From a virus: a DNA stretch of 44,415 nt. The stretch spans positions 1 to 44,415 of the IMG/VR virus record IMGVR_UViG_3300025141_016923. One strand, given 5' to 3'. The translations under genes and the position numbers were made by a program. Positions 30,609 to 44,415 of this stretch are shown piece after piece (the stretch's first letter is position 1; every line of letters begins with the position of its first letter). The notes under the pieces were generated by a model. The model was not told the DNA's origin. It worked only from the letters and a program-made list of their open reading frames with translations, and ran no database searches.

Positions 30609-31430
30609 TTAATAATTTTCTAAAATATCATCAAAACTAACATTATAAACACCAAGATACTTTACTGATATTCCTGCACATATATTTGCAAATTTAATTG
30701 CCGGATCGAGATTGTGTGTTCCCAAATAACCAATACACAAACCCGCTAAAAATGAATCTCCAGCACCACAGACATCAAAAACACCACGAGCTTTTGTTGC
30801 TGGGTATATATTTTCATTCCACTTAGCACCTCTTTCACCTAAGGTTGTAATTAGCTCACAATTGCTCGGAAACTGATGTGCAGCTTCCCTTTCAACCTCA
30901 TTTATTTTTATTATACAGTCTTCAAAATAAGATAAATTTGTTTTTTTGCTGTCTACAAAAATCGGCTTCGGAAGTAATTGCACTATATTACCCAACAATT
31001 CTTCAGGTAAAAACCCTTTGTCATAATCAGATATAACTGTTGCATCAAAAGTATTTTCATTTAAAAATTTTGCCAAGTTATCAATATTAATTGGATCACA
31101 ATTATCATTAGAATCAATTCTTAAAACCTGTTGCGGTGATCCAGAAACACCCTCAGCAATCATCCTCTCTTTCTTTATTATATTTTTATTTGTAACATGA
31201 AAAGTTGAATGACCGAGTGATTCAATGTTTAAATTTACATTTGCTGCCATTCCAGGTTTCTCTTCAGATCTTTGTTGTAGCAAAATTGGAACCGGAGCTT
31301 CTGCGCTCAGTCGAGTACATTTTCCAAACCTGTAAATATCAACACATGTTTCACCCAAGACCAATATTTTTAGCTGTCTTTGTTGTTGAATATCCTTCAA
31401 TTCTCTCAAAGAACAATAATCTTTTTGCAT
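30609..31430 (-). CDS. hldE: HldE kinase-type protein (PfkB family, heptose-7-phosphate kinase half)
   Basis: This 273-aa PfkB-type sugar kinase resembles the N-terminal half of HldE/RfaE. It has 'KILVLGETCVDIYRFG', 'EKPGMAANVNLNI', 'VISDYDKGFLPEE' and the anion-hole/catalytic motif 'DVCGAGDSFLAG' with D225. HldE phosphorylates D-glycero-beta-D-manno-heptose 7-phosphate at C1. The domain is shorter than the usual 310-320. ATG 31430 lies 80 bases inside the nucleotidyltransferase gene. The conserved domain starts near 31373, still before that gene's stop, so at least 25 bases of overlap are real. The Shine-Dalgarno site is weak, which implies coupled translation. Confidence 0.85.
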   Translation of the reverse strand: MQKDYCSLRELKDIQQQRQLKILVLGETCVDIYRFGKCTRLSAEAPVPILLQQRSEEKPGMAANVNLNIESLGHSTFHVTNKNIIKKERMIAEGVSGSPQQVLRIDSNDNCDPINIDNLAKFLNENTFDATVISDYDKGFLPEELLGNIVQLLPKPIFVDSKKTNLSYFEDCIIKINEVEREAAHQFPSNCELITTLGERGAKWNENIYPATKARGVFDVCGAGDSFLAGLCIGYLGTHNLDPAIKFANICAGISVKYLGVYNVSFDDILENY

Positions 31431-31752
31431 TTTCCGAACCTATTACTTCTTTATTTCGATAGTCTGAACCTACGACCATTATATCAGGTTCTATTACTTT
31501 GATTAACACCCTTAGTTCATCCGACGTATTAAAAATTTCAACGTTATCAATACAATTAAGTGATAGTAATACTTCTTTTCTATCTTTTTGTGAATTTATC
31601 GGCCTTGATTCGCCTTTTAATTTCGACACTCTTTCATCTGAATCTATTCCAACGATTAAAATATCACATTGCTCTTTTGCAAACTTAAACATACGAATAT
31701 GCCCAACATGTAGGATATCAAAACATCCATTAATAAAACCAATTTTTTTCAT
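31351..31752 (-). CDS. hldE: HldE nucleotidyltransferase-type protein (cytidylyltransferase fold)
   Basis: This 133-aa protein has the HxGH nucleotidyl transfer signature 'GCFDILHVGHIRMF' (H15-V-G-H18), then 'LIVGIDSDERVSKLKG', 'RPINSQKDRKEVL' and 'DIMVVGSDYRNKEVIG', followed by 'GYSTTKTAKNIG'. This is the HldE C-terminal (RfaE2) pattern. It would join ATP or CTP to heptose-1-phosphate. In bacteria HldE is usually one protein with the kinase first; here the halves are separate and in reverse order. The ATG overlaps the methyltransferase stop (ATGA). Confidence 0.87.
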   Translation of the reverse strand: MKKIGFINGCFDILHVGHIRMFKFAKEQCDILIVGIDSDERVSKLKGESRPINSQKDRKEVLLSLNCIDNVEIFNTSDELRVLIKVIEPDIMVVGSDYRNKEVIGSENAKRLLFFERIEGYSTTKTAKNIGLG

Positions 31753-32879
31753 AATCTTAAGCTTGTTGCAATTTTAATCCATAGTGATTCATCTGTCAAA
31801 TCAAATACATGCGAATAAATTCCATTCTTATTTTTTTGTGCCCAAGAAGGTGCAATTAAAAATTTGCTTTTAACTTTTGTGCTTTCGATGATGTTATCTG
31901 GCACAGCATAGTCTATATTGACACAACCCAACGTATTATTTCTGCTTAAGCGACACAACGAATCCTTGTATGCTTTCGCGTGTTTTCTAAATTCTTTAGA
32001 AGCCACAACAGCACAAAGCCTGATTCCATAATTTGACAGTAAAGATTCCACATGTCTCAAATAATTTAAGTTATCAAGGTTTTTCGTAAAAGGCTCAGAA
32101 ACAAAGGCAAGCAAATCCATGTTTTCATAAAATGGAAGTGGGGGGCCAAATGTTCTCGGTGGTATGTATGGTGATATATTTGGAGAAAATGGACTAGATA
32201 TCATCTCTCTCCTTTCAGTATCATTAATATTGATTGAGTATCCCTTCCGCAATTCTGGCTCTGCTGTACAAAAATCAGCATATTGGTTTTTGTCTACTGT
32301 TATCAAATAACATCTAGATGATGATGCCCAATCTGCTGCTTTTGTGCAGATTTTTGTAATACTAACATGCCACGGATATGCCAAACGAGAAAATTCAAGT
32401 ATTGGACCAAAATTATTTTTAGAACTATAATATGTAGATGCCCATGGATCATTACCAAGATCAGTCCAAAAATTGCAATGACCATCAGGTGGAGGTCCCT
32501 CTACATTGAACGACTCCCTCCATGGAACAGTGATAATTAATTTTCTATCTGTTAACTTGATAAGGTTTATAAAAGCAGTTTTCCAATCTTCAATATGTTC
32601 CAAAACCTCAGAACATATTACTGTTTCACGACTCTTAACTGAGAAGGTTGATAAATCCAATATGTTTGACTGTTCATAGTTTAATTTATCAATATTTTTC
32701 TTTCTACCTTCTGCGGTATGGCTATCTACACCAAAATCTGTTGAGATTACGTCATAACCCATTTCTCCAAGTTCAACTTCCAAATTTCCAGTGCCACACC
32801 CTACTGTCAATATTTCTTTCTTTGTATTGTAAACAGGTAATGAATCAATGATTGATATATGTCTTATGTCAAATGGCAT
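31749..32879 (-). CDS. Two-part SAM methyltransferase with unknown C-terminal domain
   Basis: The 376-aa product has an N-terminal class I methyltransferase domain: 'KEILTVGCGTGNLEVEL' (motif I, residues 21-37), 'DVISTDFG' and 'VICSEVLEHIEDW', then 'RKLIITVPW'. The last 180 residues (from 'TFGPPLPFYENMDLLAFVSEP' on) belong to no family I recognise; 'LRHVESLLSNYGIRLCAVVAS' looks helical with a Rossmann-like turn. ATG 32879 overlaps hldD by 11 bases. Placement between hldD and the nucleotidyltransferase suggests a heptose-related or acceptor methylation, but this is inference. Confidence 0.83.
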   Translation of the reverse strand: MPFDIRHISIIDSLPVYNTKKEILTVGCGTGNLEVELGEMGYDVISTDFGVDSHTAEGRKKNIDKLNYEQSNILDLSTFSVKSRETVICSEVLEHIEDWKTAFINLIKLTDRKLIITVPWRESFNVEGPPPDGHCNFWTDLGNDPWASTYYSSKNNFGPILEFSRLAYPWHVSITKICTKAADWASSSRCYLITVDKNQYADFCTAEPELRKGYSININDTERREMISSPFSPNISPYIPPRTFGPPLPFYENMDLLAFVSEPFTKNLDNLNYLRHVESLLSNYGIRLCAVVASKEFRKHAKAYKDSLCRLSRNNTLGCVNIDYAVPDNIIESTKVKSKFLIAPSWAQKNKNGIYSHVFDLTDESLWIKIATSLRL

Positions 32880-33735
32880 CGAAAATCTCTTTTGTTAGAA
32901 AAATTCCTTCTTCTAGATCTATTCTGTCACTAGAAATTTGAGAATTAATTTTTGAGTTATCACTACACGTATAATCCTGGTATTTTCCAATAAGGTGAGA
33001 TGGAAATGCTACTTCTTCTATATCTGCGCCTGTTAAATCTGAAATTATTTTAGCAACATCAAAAAATGACCGTGGATTGTTTGTCCCAACATTATAGATA
33101 CCTGAATCAAAAAATATTGCACTCTTTGTAATCTGAGCAACATTATCTACATGGATAAAGTCTCGTTTAAAACCATGACTTCCTTCAAATATCTTAATTC
33201 TTCCATTAGTTCTTGCCTGTTTTAAAAATTTATGAACTGGACTTGCCTGATCGTGCTTGTGCTCTTCACCAGGACCATAAACATTAAAATATCTTAACCC
33301 AACAATCTCAGATGATGGATTGTCTATTATTTTTTGCATTGCAATTTTATCAAAAGCTGACTTGCTTATTGCATAATAATTTAATGGAGTCAAAACTGTA
33401 TCTTCACAAAAACCATTCTTACCCAGACCATAAACCGAAGCTGAAGAAGCATACACAAAAGGAATTCCAGCCTCGATACATGCATCCAAAAGCACAGAAC
33501 TCAATGTTATATTAGTATCACTGATTAATCCAATATCTGTTTCCGTTGTTGACGAAATTGCGCCTAAATGATAAACCGCTATAACTTCCTTATTTGTTAT
33601 TTTCATTAAAGCATACTCTTGCGAATTTTTTCCATCAAAGCAATCAAGATCGCACGGGGTAAAATTATCAAATAACTTTGTCAAATGAGAACCAATGAAG
33701 CCGCTAGAGCCAGTTATTAAAACTTTACCTTTCAT
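32869..33735 (-). CDS. hldD: ADP-L-glycero-D-manno-heptose 6-epimerase-like protein
   Basis: The 288-aa enzyme starts at ATG 33735, overlapping the FkbM stop (ATGA); GTG 33741 is a poorer choice. It carries the NAD(P) loop 'LITGSSGFIGSHL', the HldD-specific 'GAISSTTETD', the catalytic Y121-x3-K125 (YAISK), 'RYFNVYGPGEEHK', 'FKRDFIHVDN' and near the end 'LIGKYQDYT'. These are diagnostic of HldD/RfaD, which turns ADP-D-glycero- into ADP-L-glycero-manno-heptose. The length is a little below the 310 aa of E. coli HldD. With split HldE and GT9 enzymes it forms a phage-encoded heptose donor route. Confidence 0.9.
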   Translation of the reverse strand: MKGKVLITGSSGFIGSHLTKLFDNFTPCDLDCFDGKNSQEYALMKITNKEVIAVYHLGAISSTTETDIGLISDTNITLSSVLLDACIEAGIPFVYASSASVYGLGKNGFCEDTVLTPLNYYAISKSAFDKIAMQKIIDNPSSEIVGLRYFNVYGPGEEHKHDQASPVHKFLKQARTNGRIKIFEGSHGFKRDFIHVDNVAQITKSAIFFDSGIYNVGTNNPRSFFDVAKIISDLTGADIEEVAFPSHLIGKYQDYTCSDNSKINSQISSDRIDLEEGIFLTKEIFDAI

Positions 33736-34508
33736 CTCCACACCGTTGCTAAATTTCCATAAACATCTTTTGGTTCGAATGTTGCTTCCTCACTTCCAGG
33801 TCGGAAAAATAACCAACTTGAAACTGTGCTTCCACCACTGAACTCGACTCCAGCAAAACCATATTGGCGTAGAAAAACCAATATATCATCAAAAGTTCCA
33901 TTCCCTTCAATGTTCCCATCTCCAGACTGTTCTTTATGAATTTCTAAAAAGAAAGCAAGAATCTTATTTTTTTCAAGGCTTTCTTTACAACCGAGCAACA
34001 TTTCATATTCTGCACCTTCTATATCAGCCCACACAAAGACACTAGTATCGTCGCTTGTTATAAGCGAATCGATTGTTATAGCAGGTGTTTTACACTCTTG
34101 ATATCGATTATCTGTTATGTGTGTATTGCTTACTTTCAATCTAAAATCCGACGCTCCGTCTTTATGGCCGGTGAATGCATCAATTTCCCCATTTTGTGAA
34201 CAAACACATGCATTAATAAGGCTTCCAGGATACATTGCATCCCGGAGCCTGCTAAATCGTTCCACTTGAGGTTCTATCCCAATTATCTCACACTCAGGAT
34301 AAAAATCATTAATTGACCAAGCCTCAGAACCAGCAAAGCCTGGTCCACAATCAATAAATTTTGAAAATTGACTTTCTTTTGATGGAAACATTTCGTTGAA
34401 AATTTTTAATAATATATAAATTTCATCATGCTGGAGTCTATCAAAGCTAGTATACTTCCCCATCTGCTTCCAATCAGTCGCATTGCGATCTTGCCATATA
34501 TCCTGCAT
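33732..34508 (-). CDS. FkbM-family methyltransferase
   Basis: This 258-aa SAM enzyme of the FkbM family has motif I-like 'KFIDCGPGFAGSEAW', 'EIIGIEPQVERF' and the family hallmark 'WADIEGAEYEMLLGC' at about residues 162-177. FkbM enzymes O-methylate sugars and other hydroxyl groups. The start is ATG 34508 with GGGA upstream; its TGA overlaps the hldD start. It adds to the second FkbM-type gene at 36.5 kb, so the glycan may carry more than one methyl mark. Confidence 0.87.
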   Translation of the reverse strand: MQDIWQDRNATDWKQMGKYTSFDRLQHDEIYILLKIFNEMFPSKESQFSKFIDCGPGFAGSEAWSINDFYPECEIIGIEPQVERFSRLRDAMYPGSLINACVCSQNGEIDAFTGHKDGASDFRLKVSNTHITDNRYQECKTPAITIDSLITSDDTSVFVWADIEGAEYEMLLGCKESLEKNKILAFFLEIHKEQSGDGNIEGNGTFDDILVFLRQYGFAGVEFSGGSTVSSWLFFRPGSEEATFEPKDVYGNLATVWR

Positions 34509-34516
34509 ACTAATCC

Positions 34517-34999
34517 CTAGAAGAAAGGTAGCCCGTCTCTCTTAATACATATTATAGCCGGTTCTCCCATCAAATAAGCGTCAATCATTGCCTTTTCTGT
34601 CTCAGGCTGATTCCGAGGGAAATAACCAAAGGTATTTTTTAACAAGCCAATAAGGCCCTCAGCATTTAATGGCCTGTGTGTCGGACCGTGAGTTGGATAA
34701 TCAGCTTGGCCTACTAACATAACTGGTAATTTTTGTTCGTCAATATCAATTTTAATCTGTTCAAATGGCCTTTCAATTAAAAAAGGTGTAATCGAATAGA
34801 CTATTGGTCTCAAACCCTCAGCGGCCATGCCGGCTGCCATGCTAATCATTGACTGCTCACAAAGACCTGCATTAATATATCTTTCAGGCCAGCGCTCGAT
34901 AAATTCTTCCATACATTGTTCAACATCACCAGATATTAAAATAACGTTATCATCTTTTTCTGCAATTCGAACAAGTGTCTTTCCAAAAGCTCTTCTCAT
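34517..34999 (-). CDS. Transketolase Pyr-domain subunit without the C-terminal domain
   Basis: This 160-aa protein is the middle (pyrimidine-binding) domain of transketolase alone. It has 'FGKTLVRIAEKDDNVILISGDV', 'YINAGLCEQSMISMAAGMAAEG' with the ThDP-activating Glu (E48), 'THGPTHRPL' and 'AIICIKRDGLPFF' at the very end. Bacterial split transketolases have a second subunit of about 300 residues; here the stop falls exactly where the third domain would begin. The ATG overlaps the stop of the PP-domain gene (TAATG), so the two chains are made together and probably pair. The substrate is unknown; see the finding on this pair. Confidence 0.87.
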   Translation of the reverse strand: MRRAFGKTLVRIAEKDDNVILISGDVEQCMEEFIERWPERYINAGLCEQSMISMAAGMAAEGLRPIVYSITPFLIERPFEQIKIDIDEQKLPVMLVGQADYPTHGPTHRPLNAEGLIGLLKNTFGYFPRNQPETEKAMIDAYLMGEPAIICIKRDGLPFF

Positions 35000-35736
35000 T
35001 ATTCTGAATCCTCCAATTCTTCAAGTGCTTGCTTTTCTCTATCTGGTGGTGGCCATTGGGCATGCCAGCAAGGTTGATTTTCCATAAAACTTACACCCTT
35101 TCCCTTGATTGTATTTGCTATAATTAGCCGTGGTATATCTATCTCTGATATTTCTAATGCTGCAAGAATTTCCTCATAAGAGTGACCATCTATTACAGAT
35201 GTATTCCACCCAATCATTTCTGCTATCTTATCAAAATTTGGAATTGGCAAAATATCTTTTGTATACCCAGATCCCTGTATTCCATTCCAGTCAGCAATTA
35301 TAACAAGGTTATCAAGTTTGTGGTGTGCCGCCAAGAGCAATGATTCCCATGTTGTTCCCTCTTGGCATTCACCATCACCAACAATTACATAAATCTTTCC
35401 AGGTTTATTTAACTTCTTCTTTGCGATTGCCATTCCAATCGCAGCAGGAAATCCATGACCCTCGCTTCCAGTAGTCCAATGTATTCCATTATGAACATCT
35501 CTTTCTGGATGACCGGTTGGCCTTGGGTCATAACCCTTCTCGCGGAGCAGAACATAATAAGGCCAGCACGCGTGGCCTTTACTCAAAATAAACCGATCCT
35601 GATCGGTAAGAACATGGTCATATAGCGAGATCAATAACTCAACAGCAGAAAAACATCCGCCATAGTGATAACCACCATTCGCCTTTGAAAAGGCTATCGT
35701 ATCTCTTCTAACCTGTTTTGATCTATTATTCAACAT
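34999..35736 (-). CDS. Transketolase PP-domain subunit
   Basis: This 245-aa subunit is the N-terminal (pyrophosphate-binding) domain. It has 'RFILSKGHACWPYY', 'TTGSEGHGFPAAIGMA', the ThDP and magnesium motif 'VGDGECQEGTTWE' (G120-D-G) with N151 in 'ADWNG', and 'ANTIKGKGVSFM'. Together with the Pyr chain it would give a ThDP enzyme that moves two-carbon units between sugar phosphates, or adds such a unit to a nucleotide-sugar, as in branched-sugar pathways. It overlaps the FkbM-like gene end by 11 bases. The ATG has GGAAGACAA upstream. Confidence 0.9.
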   Translation of the reverse strand: MLNNRSKQVRRDTIAFSKANGGYHYGGCFSAVELLISLYDHVLTDQDRFILSKGHACWPYYVLLREKGYDPRPTGHPERDVHNGIHWTTGSEGHGFPAAIGMAIAKKKLNKPGKIYVIVGDGECQEGTTWESLLLAAHHKLDNLVIIADWNGIQGSGYTKDILPIPNFDKIAEMIGWNTSVIDGHSYEEILAALEISEIDIPRLIIANTIKGKGVSFMENQPCWHAQWPPPDREKQALEELEDSE

Positions 35737-36559
35737 TTGTCTTCCTTATTAATGGGTAATAATTCCCTAATTCTTTCTTGTATGGCTTGTTTGGATAATC
35801 GAGACCTACAATTGGAAATTTTTGATTCGTCTCTTTAGCATCTTCTATTAAATCTTTTCTGACATACGTCATTTCAATTAAAGGAGGAATTTCACAACCT
35901 CCAATATTTATCTTCTTTAGTGAATTATTGGGGTGAATGTGAACAGCATAAAATTTAGAATTTAAAAAACTTAAAATTTCATAATATTTTCTGCACAGTT
36001 CTTCATTAATTTTATTATAAATCGTTTTATAAAAATTACAAAAATATGGTGTTAATTTATGCTCATCCTGCTGGTTTGGTATAAATTTTTTCTCAACATC
36101 GATGAATGCAAAATGAAATTCAATTAAAATTTGATCTACACTGCTTAACAATCCCGGGCTCACTGATTTTATTACTTCCCATTCGTCCCATTCAATATCC
36201 ATTTTCATAGTAATTCCGGAATTATAAGATTCTAGAATTGACGATAGTGATAAAAAATCACCAAATGATTTTGCGGCAACTCCCTTTTTAGTGAAGGTAA
36301 AATTTTCATGACTTAGTGGTAACGAATTTACAGTGTGATCAAACAGTTCCACAGAGGTATTCGGATATTTATTAACCCAATCAATCTCAAATGTAACATT
36401 ATCTTCAACACCAAATGAAATAAGTGTACTACATTCATTAGCTATTTCATGAACTGCAACGTAACCGCCATCACAATTATTCCCAATTCTTATTTTTGAG
36501 AATTCACAATCATAAACTTTTATTTCATTTAAAAAATTAGTAGCCAAATCACTAATCAT
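35726..36559 (-). CDS. FkbM-like methyltransferase, divergent
   Basis: The 277-aa protein carries FkbM-type signatures: 'KIRIGNNCDGGYVAVHE' near the N-terminus, 'LISFGVEDNVTFEID', and 'MKMDIEWDEWEVIKS' (residues 118-132), the equivalent of the D-I-E-G-x-E motif, here with W in place of G. The C-terminal half includes 'LIEFHFAF' and a His-rich 'YAVHIHPNNS'. This subfamily is common beside polysaccharide genes. The altered motif may affect substrate rather than SAM binding. The ATG overlaps the alcohol dehydrogenase stop (ATGA). Confidence 0.8.
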   Translation of the reverse strand: MISDLATNFLNEIKVYDCEFSKIRIGNNCDGGYVAVHEIANECSTLISFGVEDNVTFEIDWVNKYPNTSVELFDHTVNSLPLSHENFTFTKKGVAAKSFGDFLSLSSILESYNSGITMKMDIEWDEWEVIKSVSPGLLSSVDQILIEFHFAFIDVEKKFIPNQQDEHKLTPYFCNFYKTIYNKINEELCRKYYEILSFLNSKFYAVHIHPNNSLKKINIGGCEIPPLIEMTYVRKDLIEDAKETNQKFPIVGLDYPNKPYKKELGNYYPLIRKTNVE

Positions 36560-37581
36560 TGATGATCCATTTTAACCATAACTCTGCCGGCTATTCCAGA
36601 CATTAATAATTCAAACGCCTCATCAACGCCATCTATACTATAAACTGCAGTTATAATCTTATCAATATCTAAAATTCCTGCCTTATGCATTTTTACATAT
36701 CTTTTTAGATCATTCTGTGGGTTGGTCTTTCCTCCTTGTGATACTATAATAGACTTTCCGGAAGGTGACCACCAACTAACGCCATCAGGAATCTTTATAT
36801 CCTGACCTGGTTTTGGCTGGCCTACTAAAATATATCGTCCAGAATCACCAAGAAATTTCATGGTTTCGTATATCGCGTTGACGTTTCCAGTTGTGTCCAT
36901 AATAACATCAAATTTATCAAATTGATCTAGATCGTCAATTTTATCTAAAAAGTGTGTGGCACCAATATTTTCTACAATAAACTGTTTATCTGTTTTGATG
37001 TCTAAACCAACTACTGGATAAGCGCTAGCTAGAAGTGACCCCTGGATTAGATTTAATCCGACACCACCACATCCAACAATCAGAACGCTCTCACCAAATT
37101 TTATCTTTGCATCATTGTTAACAGCACCAAGAGCAGTTGTCATTCCACATCCAAGCAGCGCACATAGGTATTCATCAGTGTCGGCCGGGACGGTTGTTAC
37201 TCTATTTTCTGACACTATTGAAAATTCACTAAGTGTAGTTATTTTTCCGGCAGACATTTCATCACCATTTTCCAGAAAATATTTTGGAAACGGGGCTTCT
37301 ATACCACCACTCTTCCTCCAGTGCATGACAACTTTATCACCAGTACTTACTGTTGTTACACCAGCCCCAACGTCCTCAACGATGCCACAACCTTCATGGC
37401 CAAGCATATGAGGCATAAATTTTGCATTTCCTTTGTGGCCGTTGATTTCATGAATTTGCGCACCGCATAATCCGCTAACTAAAACCCTAACCAAAACCTG
37501 ACCAGGTTCTAAGTGCTGTGGTAGATACACTTGTTCAACTTTTGGAACAATTCCAACTTTTCTTAATATGGCAGCCTTCAT
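36556..37581 (-). CDS. Zinc-dependent alcohol dehydrogenase (MDR), lacking the structural zinc lobe
   Basis: The product starts at ATG 37581, one base after the SDR stop, with GAGGA upstream; it has 341 aa. It is a medium-chain dehydrogenase with the catalytic zinc set C39 ('SGLCGAQIHE'), H62-E ('LGHEGCGIV') and C145 ('LLGCGMTTALG'), and an NAD loop 'LIVGCGGVGLN'. The four-cysteine structural zinc loop is missing and replaced by 'HWRKSGGIEAPFPKYFLENG'. Such forms occur in sugar clusters and oxidise polyols or sugars. It is next to the transketolase pair and an SDR, so these may act in one pathway. Confidence 0.9.
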   Translation of the reverse strand: MKAAILRKVGIVPKVEQVYLPQHLEPGQVLVRVLVSGLCGAQIHEINGHKGNAKFMPHMLGHEGCGIVEDVGAGVTTVSTGDKVVMHWRKSGGIEAPFPKYFLENGDEMSAGKITTLSEFSIVSENRVTTVPADTDEYLCALLGCGMTTALGAVNNDAKIKFGESVLIVGCGGVGLNLIQGSLLASAYPVVGLDIKTDKQFIVENIGATHFLDKIDDLDQFDKFDVIMDTTGNVNAIYETMKFLGDSGRYILVGQPKPGQDIKIPDGVSWWSPSGKSIIVSQGGKTNPQNDLKRYVKMHKAGILDIDKIITAVYSIDGVDEAFELLMSGIAGRVMVKMDHQ

Positions 37582-37582
37582 C

Positions 37583-38239
37583 TTATCCTCGATTAAATTT
37601 TCTAATAACAACTTCTGTTTCAAGCGATGTCATATTATTGCCCCCTATAATATCGCCCACCCTACTGGCAACTTCTCTGGGGTCTATTAACGTACTATAG
37701 TTTTCCCGAGATCTTGTCATGTCTGTCTTCATTGCACCCGGAAATATATCAACTATCCTAACATTCTTTCCAATCGATTCAACTTGCAGTGACTGTGAAA
37801 AACCTTTTAATGCATGTTTTGTTGAGCTGTAAATTGTTTCACCAGGGGCTGGTTGAAGAGCAGCGATTGAATTTATATTAATAATCAAACCATCACCTTT
37901 ATTCACAAAGTGAGCGTACACTCTTTTTAAAAGCTTAATCTGCGCTGTTATGTTAACATTTACTATTTTTTCTATATCCTCATCAGAATGTTCTAAAAAT
38001 AATTTTCTCTGATGTATTGCTGCATTATTCACAAATACATTAATATTATTGTGATCTAATGCTAACTCTATTTTGTCAAGGGTTGTGCTGTCGGTAATAT
38101 CTCCAGCAACTGCGTTTTTTAGCAAGTTCTGTGGAAAAATTCTAAAATGAGGAAGAACAAAACAGCCTCTATCATGTAATTCATCACAGATTAACACTCC
38201 AAGACCCCTTGAACAGCCCGTCACTAAAACATTATTCAT
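37583..38239 (-). CDS. Short-chain dehydrogenase/reductase (classical SDR)
   Basis: The 218-aa enzyme has the cofactor loop 'TGCSRGLG' (residues 7-14), 'FVNNAAIH' (N71-N-A-A), the catalytic Ser S124 in 'NSIAAL', and the YxxxK pair Y137 and K141 in 'IYSSTKHALKGF', followed by 'IFPGAMKTDM'. GAGG lies seven bases before ATG 38239. It is probably a sugar or polyol reductase that works with the alcohol dehydrogenase downstream; the stop of one is one base from the start of the other. The substrate is unknown. Confidence 0.9.
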   Translation of the reverse strand: MNNVLVTGCSRGLGVLICDELHDRGCFVLPHFRIFPQNLLKNAVAGDITDSTTLDKIELALDHNNINVFVNNAAIHQRKLFLEHSDEDIEKIVNVNITAQIKLLKRVYAHFVNKGDGLIININSIAALQPAPGETIYSSTKHALKGFSQSLQVESIGKNVRIVDIFPGAMKTDMTRSRENYSTLIDPREVASRVGDIIGGNNMTSLETEVVIRKFNRG

Positions 38240-41263: not shown

Positions 41264-41271
41264 TCAAGTGG
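41222..41271 (-). terminator. Possible transcription terminator of the tail fibre gene
   Basis: A 6-bp stem, CCACTT/AAGTGG with a 5-base loop (41255-41271), overlaps the fibre stop. A second exact 7-bp inverted repeat, TAAAATT/AATTTTA (41222-41228 and 41238-41244), encloses six T residues on the minus strand. Neither is a textbook GC-rich hairpin followed at once by U residues, so the call is weak. Confidence 0.35.
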
Positions 41272-44200
41272 TATCATATTCCCATACAGCTGTTAATATT
41301 ACATTTCCTGGATCAAATGACGGATCAACTGATAACCCAATTATGTCTCCACCTGCAAAATTTTCTGTTGCTGTGAAGTTAAATGTATAAGCCGTGTTGG
41401 CTGTTGCCATATTGACGGTTTGTGATGATCCTTGATACGATGTGTTTATATCGACATTACCGTCAACATTCAGGTGAAGACCAATCGCAGTGCTCCCTGC
41501 AACTGTTGGATTGGCATCAGATCTTGCAATAACTTTAATTAATTTTCCTTGATATGGAGCTATCATTTTATTGTCAGCTCCAGGACCGCTATCGGAACCG
41601 TCTGAATCGAATCGTACATAATGTCTAGCATCAGTACCTGGTGCAAATTTATGTGTTGTATAATGAAGTTGTCTTGCTCTAAATGATCCTGATACTACAA
41701 CATCACCACCAAAAACCCCAACGCCTCTGCGCGATGCATGGCCATTTGGTAATTCTAGTGCACCGACAGAACCAGATGACCAGAAGCATGTATCTATACC
41801 ACCTTCACTAGCATTATCAGTGTTTATATAAACAGTGTTTGATGTTCCTCCTTCGTTCTTAGAAGCAATTGCCATTTTAGAATTTGTTTTAACCATAAAT
41901 GAAACATCTGTTCCGTCAGCATTTATTGCAATACTTGATGGTGTACCGTGTGGTTCATACGATAATATCTGAACATCATTACCTTTTAGTCTAAATGAAC
42001 CTTCTCCCTCATTGTTCCACTCTATGGAAGAATTTGGATTTTTAATCGTTGACAACGATTCAGAAACATGTAACCCACCACTAACGACTAAATCACCACC
42101 AAACACAGATATGGTTTTATCACCTACTCCATATTGATTCTTACCGCCGATAGCTCCAGAGACATAAAAGGCAACATCACCACCCGCGGCTTCATCTGGC
42201 GAATTGGCAGAGCCACCAGACAATATTAATACCTGCCCGAGACCAGCATCTGTTTTAATAGAATACTTGTCAGCAGTGCCACCATAAACAACAAAATCTA
42301 TATCTTGTGAGTCAGGATTAACTTGCCAAAGATCTTGGCTTGATTCGAAGAGCTGAACAAACGTTTTTCCTCCAGCTCTCATTTGAATTGTATCGCTACC
42401 GTTAAATCTTATGTATGAATCGGAGTCTCTGGAACACCTAATGTATTCTGATACATGAATTGACTCTGGGTTTAATGCATAAAGCGTTCCTGATACAACT
42501 GTATCTCCACCAAAGACCGATGTTCCCATGTAACCAATGCTCGCCTGGTCTGCCCCAATAGCTCCAGATACATAGAAAGAAATATCAGATCCCATTGCTT
42601 CATTTGGAGATTGTGCAGCGCCGCCAGAGTGGATAAGCACCTTCCCGTCTGGCTTGAGATTCAAGTGTGCATTAGCAGCAGCGCTATCAAGAGTTGTCAG
42701 TTGTGTCTTACCATCTGCACCTACGCTGATGTCAAAATAATTCGTTCCATCGAGAGTGTGACATCTGATATGACTTGCGTTTACTTCTCCTTCGACCCAG
42801 CCCGGCGGGGCAGTAACTGTGATACCTCTGGATGCATTGTTACTAAAGCTTCCGGGATCCGCCACACTAACCCTAATTCCGTCGGTAGTCTGGGATACCC
42901 CAGTATCACTTCCCGTTACTTCGATCTCGAGTCCAACACCTTGAACCATGCCAACCATGGTCGGAGCAGACTGATCATACTTAATCCATAGACCCTTGTG
43001 CTTTTGAAACTGACCCGATGCAACGATACCGGTCACGTCGTAATCGATCAATATACCAGACGCTCCATCATGCGAAGAGATGGAACTATTACTAGTTGTA
43101 TCTGTATAGATTCTGTCAACATCTAGCGCAGATGTTGCTCCGCTAGCAGATCCTGTCAATCCCAGCTTGAAGCCATTAAAATGTAAACCTGGATCAGACA
43201 TTAATGTATTAGCATCTGCCCAATAGGCAAGCCTAGTTGCATCACCGCCGCCGTCAATATCTGCGGTGGCATTAATCGTAACTGCACCATTCGATGCCGA
43301 TGTAATTGTTACATTCGACCCTGCTCTAAGATAACTAGTGCCGTCAGTCAATTTGGTCAGTGAACCACTAAGCCCCAGTGAAGCTGTTAAGAAGCCATTT
43401 GATAAAACATTAAATTCCGAACCTACCCCGCTCCGACCAATAAAAACTGGATATTCACTAACGTCATTTCCTGTTGCTCCAATACCAACATAGTCTGATA
43501 CACCATCATTCGGCCGTAATACAGTACCTTCGTCAGTCCATTCAGCACTGACTGCTGTACCAGTAATTGTAACTGCACCATTAGATGCAGATGCTATAGT
43601 AATACCATTACCAGCAATTAGATATGATGTCCCATCTATTAACTGTGTTAGTGAACCACTCATTCCATCCATCAAGGTAATTGATCCAGAAGAATATATG
43701 TCACCATCAAATAATGCTTTTCCTTGCCCACCTTGATTCGCGACAAATAATGTTGTTACGTCAGTTCCTAAGTCACTTCTATATCCACCAATTTGAACCG
43801 GACCAAATCCTGCATCGCCCCCACCGTAGAGGCCGCCGCTAACAACTAAATCACCGCCAAATATGGAAGTTCCCTTTGTTGACGTTCCTTGTGAGCCTAT
43901 CGCACCAGAGACAAAGAAATTAGTGTCTGTAAATGTTCTTGGATCCGGATCTTGAGGCGATGATCCCTGTCCAACAGTATCCGTTGTAGTACCAGAAAGT
44001 ATCATCACCTGATCTGTACTACCATCAGTTTGTATGGCTGCCGTCTTGTTAGCTGTTTCAACTCTAAAATCTTCTGAAGCACCAGATTGATTTACTATTA
44101 CAGTTCCATTTAGATTTACATCTCCTTGAACATCTAGTGTTGTACCATTCCATGTAAGATCAGCATCAGACGTTAGTGTATCAGTGTCAGACCAAGTCGC

Positions 44201-44415
44201 AATTCTATTTACTGCTCCTGAACCGTCAATATCTCCAGCCGCAGCAATTGTAACCGCTCCGTTCGAAGCTGATGTGATTGTAACATTTGAACCAGCTATA
44301 AGATAACTTGATCCGTCTGTTAATTTTGTCAGCGAACCGGACAACCCTTGATTAAAGTCGGAATTTCCATTAAACACTGCCGGGCCATAAACTGTAAATG
44401 TATCAGAGCCCGAAA
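41264..44415 (-). CDS. Repeat-built tail fibre-like protein, 5' end off the right edge
   Basis: The frame is open to the right edge (at least 1049 aa); a GTG at 44377 is internal, because the codons upstream continue without a stop and give similar sequence (SDTFTVYGPAVF). Three copies of a 34-residue module occur (G-[LM]-S-G-S-L-T-[KQ]-L ending SNGAVTI). Four or so further blocks have 'FYVSGAIG' followed about 15 residues later by 'VFGGDLVVSGGLY'. The C-terminal 130 residues form a different, beta-rich head (RHYVRFDSD, IGLHLNVDG, ILTAVWEYD). Such repeats and a terminal head fit a long fibre or a similar appendage. No chaperone domain is seen. Confidence 0.87.
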   Translation of the reverse strand, partial: SGSDTFTVYGPAVFNGNSDFNQGLSGSLTKLTDGSSYLIAGSNVTITSASNGAVTIAAAGDIDGSGAVNRIATWSDTDTLTSDADLTWNGTTLDVQGDVNLNGTVIVNQSGASEDFRVETANKTAAIQTDGSTDQVMILSGTTTDTVGQGSSPQDPDPRTFTDTNFFVSGAIGSQGTSTKGTSIFGGDLVVSGGLYGGGDAGFGPVQIGGYRSDLGTDVTTLFVANQGGQGKALFDGDIYSSGSITLMDGMSGSLTQLIDGTSYLIAGNGITIASASNGAVTITGTAVSAEWTDEGTVLRPNDGVSDYVGIGATGNDVSEYPVFIGRSGVGSEFNVLSNGFLTASLGLSGSLTKLTDGTSYLRAGSNVTITSASNGAVTINATADIDGGGDATRLAYWADANTLMSDPGLHFNGFKLGLTGSASGATSALDVDRIYTDTTSNSSISSHDGASGILIDYDVTGIVASGQFQKHKGLWIKYDQSAPTMVGMVQGVGLEIEVTGSDTGVSQTTDGIRVSVADPGSFSNNASRGITVTAPPGWVEGEVNASHIRCHTLDGTNYFDISVGADGKTQLTTLDSAAANAHLNLKPDGKVLIHSGGAAQSPNEAMGSDISFYVSGAIGADQASIGYMGTSVFGGDTVVSGTLYALNPESIHVSEYIRCSRDSDSYIRFNGSDTIQMRAGGKTFVQLFESSQDLWQVNPDSQDIDFVVYGGTADKYSIKTDAGLGQVLILSGGSANSPDEAAGGDVAFYVSGAIGGKNQYGVGDKTISVFGGDLVVSGGLHVSESLSTIKNPNSSIEWNNEGEGSFRLKGNDVQILSYEPHGTPSSIAINADGTDVSFMVKTNSKMAIASKNEGGTSNTVYINTDNASEGGIDTCFWSSGSVGALELPNGHASRRGVGVFGGDVVVSGSFRARQLHYTTHKFAPGTDARHYVRFDSDGSDSGPGADNKMIAPYQGKLIKVIARSDANPTVAGSTAIGLHLNVDGNVDINTSYQGSSQTVNMATANTAYTFNFTATENFAGGDIIGLSVDPSFDPGNVILTAVWEYDTT
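43274..43375 (-). repeat. Fibre module copy 3 (34 codons)
   Basis: It encodes G-L-S-G-S-L-T-K-L through S-N-G-A-V-T-I, nearly the same as copy 1 but with R for I in 'YLRAG'. A stretch of about 600 bases with higher G+C begins shortly downstream in reading order. Confidence 0.8.
43565..43666 (-). repeat. Fibre module copy 2 (34 codons)
   Basis: It encodes G-M-S-G-S-L-T-Q-L through S-N-G-A-V-T-I, the most diverged of the three copies (NGITIAS in place of SNVTITS). Confidence 0.8.
44246..44347 (-). repeat. Fibre module copy 1 (34 codons)
   Basis: It encodes G-L-S-G-S-L-T-K-L through S-N-G-A-V-T-I. It is the first copy in the window, and others may lie beyond the right edge. Confidence 0.8.

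Follow-up and report, generated by a model that had tools for sequence, protein, structure and literature searches.

To our knowledge, characterised transketolases possess a third, C-terminal domain in addition to their PP (ThDP diphosphate-binding) and Pyr domains. In the known enzymes this domain belongs to the chain that dimerises, so a form reduced to two domains might need another partner. Sulfopyruvate decarboxylase (ComDE) and related ThDP enzymes of the decarboxylase branch work with Pyr and PP chains only, and the third domain is thus dispensable in ThDP enzymes generally. The split transketolase of Carboxydothermus hydrogenoformans (ChTK; PDB 6yak and 6yaj) carries PP and Pyr on separate chains with no PP-Pyr linker, and its second chain, ChTK-C, comprises a Pyr domain (residues 1-162) followed by a C-terminal domain (164-312) (PMC7661550). 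Phages with surface-sugar gene islands are already known, as in the pelagimyophages (PMC7029224), and very diverged, still shorter two-domain relatives of the pair described here are annotated in Campylobacter phages. The Firehammervirus phages CP21 and IBB35 encode, respectively, a Pyr-only protein of 149 aa, CP21_104 ("putative transketolase"; L187:4902-5351), and a PP-like protein of 192 aa (L186:25655-26233). They differ from our pair in that the PP-like protein lacks the GDG motif and no dehydrogenase lies beside CP21_104. Our search of the literature on split transketolases, heptose and O-antigen synthesis, and Campylobacter phages found no paper on a two-domain transketolase form or clade.

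The locus analysed here belongs to a marine phage whose IMG/VR record, 44,415 bases long and referred to below as the window, encodes baseplate wedge proteins and, on its minus strand, a long sugar-gene island. The part of the island around the transketolase pair contains the following features.

30609..31430, minus strand: HldE domain I-like PfkB sugar kinase (TIGR02198, E 5.8e-42, in three stretches, under its cut-off)
31351..31752, minus strand: HldE domain II-like nucleotidyltransferase (TIGR02199, E 6e-38, under its cut-off)
32869..33741, minus strand: HldD-like NDP-sugar epimerase (TIGR02197, E 5.7e-69, under its cut-off)
33732..34508, minus strand: FkbM-family methyltransferase, directly downstream of Pyr (PF05050, E 9.9e-14)
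34517..34999, minus strand: Pyr subunit of the two-domain transketolase, 160 aa, no C-terminal domain (Transket_pyr, E 2.5e-20)
34999..35736, minus strand: PP (ThDP diphosphate-binding) subunit, 245 aa (Transketolase_N, E 8e-28)
35726..36559, minus strand: 277-aa orphan protein encoded between ADH and PP, resembling an FkbM methyltransferase on visual inspection
36556..37623, minus strand: Zn-dependent alcohol dehydrogenase (ADH), conserved cassette partner (ADH_N / ADH_zinc_N; PHROG 2640, phrog_2640 E 7.7e-76)
37583..38239, minus strand: SDR reductase, conserved cassette partner (adh_short, E 5.7e-38)

The stop codon of PP and the start codon of Pyr overlap at the junction GAATAATGAGA (TAATG), indicating translational overlap of the two chains. 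The 277-aa gene upstream overlaps both PP and the Zn-alcohol dehydrogenase, making this one operon-like run; its product has no Pfam, NCBIfam or PHROG match. PP likewise has no match in PHROGs, and that of Pyr is weak and functionless. None of the HldE-I-, HldE-II- and HldD-like genes reaches its curated cut-off, as ADP-heptose biosynthesis, judged together with GmhA, would call for. The HldE-I-like kinase (273 aa) matches its model in separate stretches, and several viral homologues are likewise short (about 242-260 aa), so this family may be compacted. Directly upstream of the sugar island, positions 41264-44377 encode a 1037-aa protein with recurring SGSLTKLTDGTSYLIAGSNVTI-type units that is probably a tail fiber.

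The two reading frames are exactly those proposed in the initial annotation, which described a minimal split transketolase lacking its third domain. The Pyr chain covers positions 5-171 of the 174 in the Transket_pyr profile and stops at residue 160, which corresponds to the boundary between the Pyr and C-terminal domains of ChTK-C. The Pfam profile of that domain, PF02780, had no match in the window even at E<=10 and none in 48 whole virus records carrying relatives; as a positive control, the same search found it in 14 of 14 control genomes. A home-built HMM was derived from the C-terminal domains of 25 split relatives that have all three domains. It recovers E. coli DXS at 93 bits as well as all of its own members, and it found no match among the six-frame ORFs of the window, at the viral loci or within up to 6 kb of sequence flanking the cellular two-domain pairs. 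The separate third-domain gene that would have undone the initial annotation was thus found by neither profile in the 44-kb record, and no co-conserved neighbour qualifies as a candidate for one. Both profiles miss the odd tail of about 120 residues on L020, whose Pyr chain is the only longer one among the viral relatives; a third domain of very divergent sequence could thus still be encoded elsewhere in a phage. A frameshift or assembly error at 34517 is ruled out, as the chain terminates near the same residue in cellular genomes and in independent viral contigs sharing as little as about 41-44% identity.

Scans of viral sequences yielded 19 Pyr loci and 51 PP loci, 41 of them non-redundant by PP sequence with the window included, and the terminase and minor capsid protein genes among their flanking genes identify these as phage loci. 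Nearly all of the non-redundant viral Pyr ORFs (35 of 36) terminate no more than about 15 residues from the end point in the window. Matches from an annotated phage collection (24-40% identity) were left out, as they were largely unannotated faecal contigs and short bacterial-looking fragments. When 84,980 species of bacteria and archaea were scanned, the 53 best cellular loci (L072-L124) proved likewise to lack the C-domain; their hosts include Pelagibacteraceae (SAR11), Chlorobiaceae, Rhodospirillaceae, Anaerolineales (Anaerolineae), Patescibacteria, Pacearchaeota and Woesearchaeota (DPANN). It is present at nearly all of the loci from L125 onward, which have 33-38% identity, the exceptions being L132 and L145. 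As judged from sequence, the short form is therefore not something peculiar to this phage; it constitutes a conserved family with members in dozens of phages as well as in sugar-coat gene clusters of bacteria and archaea. Most cellular carriers checked also hold single-chain ORFs of transketolase or DXS size (621-701 aa), suggesting the two-domain pair is not their housekeeping transketolase; no such ORF was seen in the DPANN genomes G049 and G055.

Some Pacearchaeota carry fused versions of these chains. In one, PP and Pyr form a single ORF of 428 aa with nothing after it and no C-domain (L076:5191-6474), the smallest single-chain transketolase-like enzyme among those examined. No second full-length PP-Pyr fusion free of further domains was identified among 371 genomes of that phylum, where one 454-aa frame was seen (G263, L165). 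Elsewhere Pyr is fused to a SIS_2 (GmhA-type) domain (L085:6000-6992) or to a radical SAM/SPASM protein (L077:6001-7539).

Phylogenies of PP and of Pyr, built by a quick search with the long-branch rows L070, L132 and L145 left out, each use one branch to separate all two-domain rows from the rest (SH-aLRT 99 in both), and since the sample was fetched by phage-family motifs, this single clade holds for the sampled rows. It stands apart from the three-domain split transketolases, so the comparison with bacterial split enzymes called for in the initial annotation sets the short form in a clade of its own, with a topology compatible both with loss of the third domain and with its never having been gained. 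The phage rows group (SH-aLRT 97) with SAR11 loci L072 and L073 and Opitutaceae locus L074. The neighbors of L073 (UDP-glucose dehydrogenase and GT2) and of L074 (a family-5 solute-binding protein) are host-type, and exchange between phages and hosts is likely. Between the window and its relative L002, Pyr shows a pN of 0.057 and a pS of 0.73, which reveals purifying selection and means that the two-domain Pyr is not a product of chance.

Split transketolases with three domains also occur at surface-polysaccharide loci (most of L125-L151), and one lies on an Azospirillum plasmid; they resemble the two-domain pairs in having ADH, HldE-like and epimerase neighbors and in the absence of D469 (E. 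coli TktA numbering). They differ in a Pyr chain of about 305-370 aa that includes the C-domain, in their separate clade, and in a protein of about 200 aa without a Pfam family that often lies directly downstream. The family of this last protein, represented at L138:6954-7556 (about 201 aa), has 21 members, of which 17 occupy the +1 position and none lies beside a two-domain pair. On the Azospirillum plasmid (L185:2958-13065), the three-domain split transketolase is flanked by a kinase, a methyltransferase and radical SAM proteins of the B12-binding type.

The predicted structures are consistent with a transketolase fold. AF2 models of the single chains are confident (pLDDT 89.5 for Pyr and 93.0 for PP). 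In Foldseek, the PP model matches split transketolases, with 6yak at the top (TMq 0.90, 36% identity), and the Pyr model matches DXS and split transketolases; against 6yaj its TMq of 0.87 and TMt of 0.47 correspond to about half of that chain. A Pyr-like fold match was also obtained to H6SUI2 of a Campylobacter phage. ChTK is the closest solved structure for PP (phmmer E 5.7e-49 against 6yak) and among the best for Pyr.

The ThDP motif and activating glutamate noted in the initial annotation are retained, together with the active-site histidines. The glutamate, E48 of Pyr, is present in 86 of 86 two-domain rows, and GDG...N151, H24, H55, H225 and H108 are kept in nearly all two-domain members. 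Expressed in TktA numbering, nearly all members have equivalents of H26, H66, H100, D155, E160, N185 and H261 in PP and of R358, E411, F437 and H473 in Pyr. Thus the cofactor and donor-side residues of TktA (H26, H66, H100, H261, E411, H473, D155 and N185), including the donor-side histidine set, are represented in the two-domain family, and the ThDP and metal residues are conserved as in ChTK. The acceptor side is different. Of the TktA acceptor and phosphate residues R358, S385, H461, D469 and R520, only R358 is kept throughout, the others being variable or replaced: S385, H461, D469 and R520 correspond to C29, Q98, H104 and R154 in the window and mostly to E, N/Y, H and K in the phages, although the alignment is gappy near S385 and H461 and the loss is less sure there than at D469 and R520. 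The position of F434 is an isoleucine in the window. Unlike TktA, which has a linker and third domain on one chain, and unlike ChTK, whose Pyr chain carries the C-domain and which keeps the equivalents of D469 and R520, the phage family as a whole retains neither these acceptor contacts nor the third domain.

The genes around the pair are also conserved. ADH is present in 20 of the 26 non-redundant viral loci whose flanks extend at least 3 kb either way, and an SDR in 19, a count that leaves out L055, where the SDR domain is inside a larger fused ORF. One or both dehydrogenases are missing as separate flanking genes at L055, L065, L067 and L068. The 277-aa orphan has homologs in 13 of the 26 loci, a PfkB kinase is found in eight and an HldE-II-like nucleotidyltransferase in four. 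The SAR11 surface-polysaccharide loci L072 and L073 possess the same cassette with a kinase, nucleotidyltransferase and epimerase; the gene order at L072 reads heptosyltransferase family 9, SIS_2, orphan, PfkB, ADH, PP, Pyr, SDR, nucleotidyltransferase, epimerase. Near the 53 cellular pairs, epimerase-family genes were found at 45 and ADH at 11.

We consider it probable that the two chains constitute one ThDP-dependent ketol (C2) transferase, made of PP and Pyr domains only and acting within an SDR-ADH-PP-Pyr cassette in the synthesis of an unusual surface sugar. Its identity as a two-domain ThDP ketol transferase is well supported by the conserved residues, and from these and the gene neighborhood we infer its reaction. 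The enzyme would most likely assemble as an alpha2beta2 heterotetramer, as in the Carboxydothermus enzyme minus its C-terminal domain, with ThDP and metal held between the PP and Pyr chains and Glu48 of Pyr activating the cofactor. A C2 ketol unit could then be moved from a ketose or hydroxypyruvate to an aldehyde, the acceptor being different from the pentose phosphate that transketolases normally use. The Zn-dehydrogenase probably produces or uses up the aldehyde; the transferase would extend or branch the carbon chain, and the SDR would reduce the new keto group. The steady presence of ADH and SDR suggests such aldehyde generation and ketone reduction around the C2 transfer. In the window phage, the heptose-type kinase, nucleotidyltransferase and epimerase would then probably convert the product into an activated precursor of a surface polysaccharide, and the pathway may serve to alter the host surface. 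The initial annotation had offered a specialised enzyme that moves a two-carbon unit onto a sugar, and this appears to remain the best general reading; the specialised role is supported by the single-chain enzymes of transketolase or DXS size in the cellular carriers and by the conserved dehydrogenase cassette. More tentatively, the clade common to phages, SAR11 and DPANN may form with the Zn-dehydrogenase and SDR a dedicated C2 chain-extension cassette for higher-carbon surface sugars, in which a sugar alcohol is oxidised to an aldehyde, C2 is added and the product is reduced.

The second role offered in the initial annotation, supply of sedoheptulose-7-phosphate to a heptose route, is only partly borne out. 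A short transketolase making this compound (or a longer ketose phosphate) for an ADP-heptose-type pathway of isomerase, kinase, phosphatase, nucleotidyltransferase and epimerase, with ADH and SDR acting elsewhere, is a rather doubtful alternative to the ketol transferase cassette. It would account for the heptose-type genes of the window, for HldE-like kinase-nucleotidyltransferases near 28 and SIS genes near 13 of the 53 cellular pairs, for the archaeal Pyr-SIS fusion, and for the heptosyltransferase-family and SIS_2 genes adjoining the SAR11 cassette. These HldE/HldD-type neighbors and the fusion do suggest that, for some members of the family, the activated sugar is heptose-like. However, of 29 virus records only 8 match HldE-II and 3 match SIS_2, no SIS isomerase (SIS_2, GmhA-type) is found in the window, and most cellular carriers already own a single-chain transketolase or DXS. 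The mostly replaced residues at S385, H461, D469 and R520, which in TktA contact the phosphate and hydroxyls of the acceptor, make plain conversion of ribose-5-phosphate to sedoheptulose-7-phosphate less likely.

A DXS- or E1-like enzyme, passing an acetyl unit from pyruvate to a sugar with a keto or aldehyde group in the manner proposed for branched-chain sugars, is unlikely. The Pyr chain does match DXS as well as it matches transketolase, but PP is far nearer to transketolase (NCBIfam E 1.2e-51, versus 7e-18 for dxs), as are its top Foldseek matches. E. coli DXS also lacks GDGExxEG and equivalents of TktA H100 and E160, all of which are transketolase-like in the two-domain pair and indicate a transketolase-like donor side. 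That the pair derives from a host transketolase as a truncated, inactive or decaying remnant, or reflects an error of assembly, is very improbable despite chains shorter than those of characterised transketolases and the strong divergence of the Campylobacter phage relatives, as about the same end point recurs in dozens of independent contigs and genomes, pN is far below pS and the catalytic residues are invariant.

Taken together, the two-domain ketol transferases would represent a clade without the third domain and thus a natural minimal transketolase, with about 405 residues per active site, in which the role of the third domain can be asked. Their changed acceptor side and the steady company of two dehydrogenases point to an undescribed sugar chemistry, borne by phages in large surface-sugar islands.
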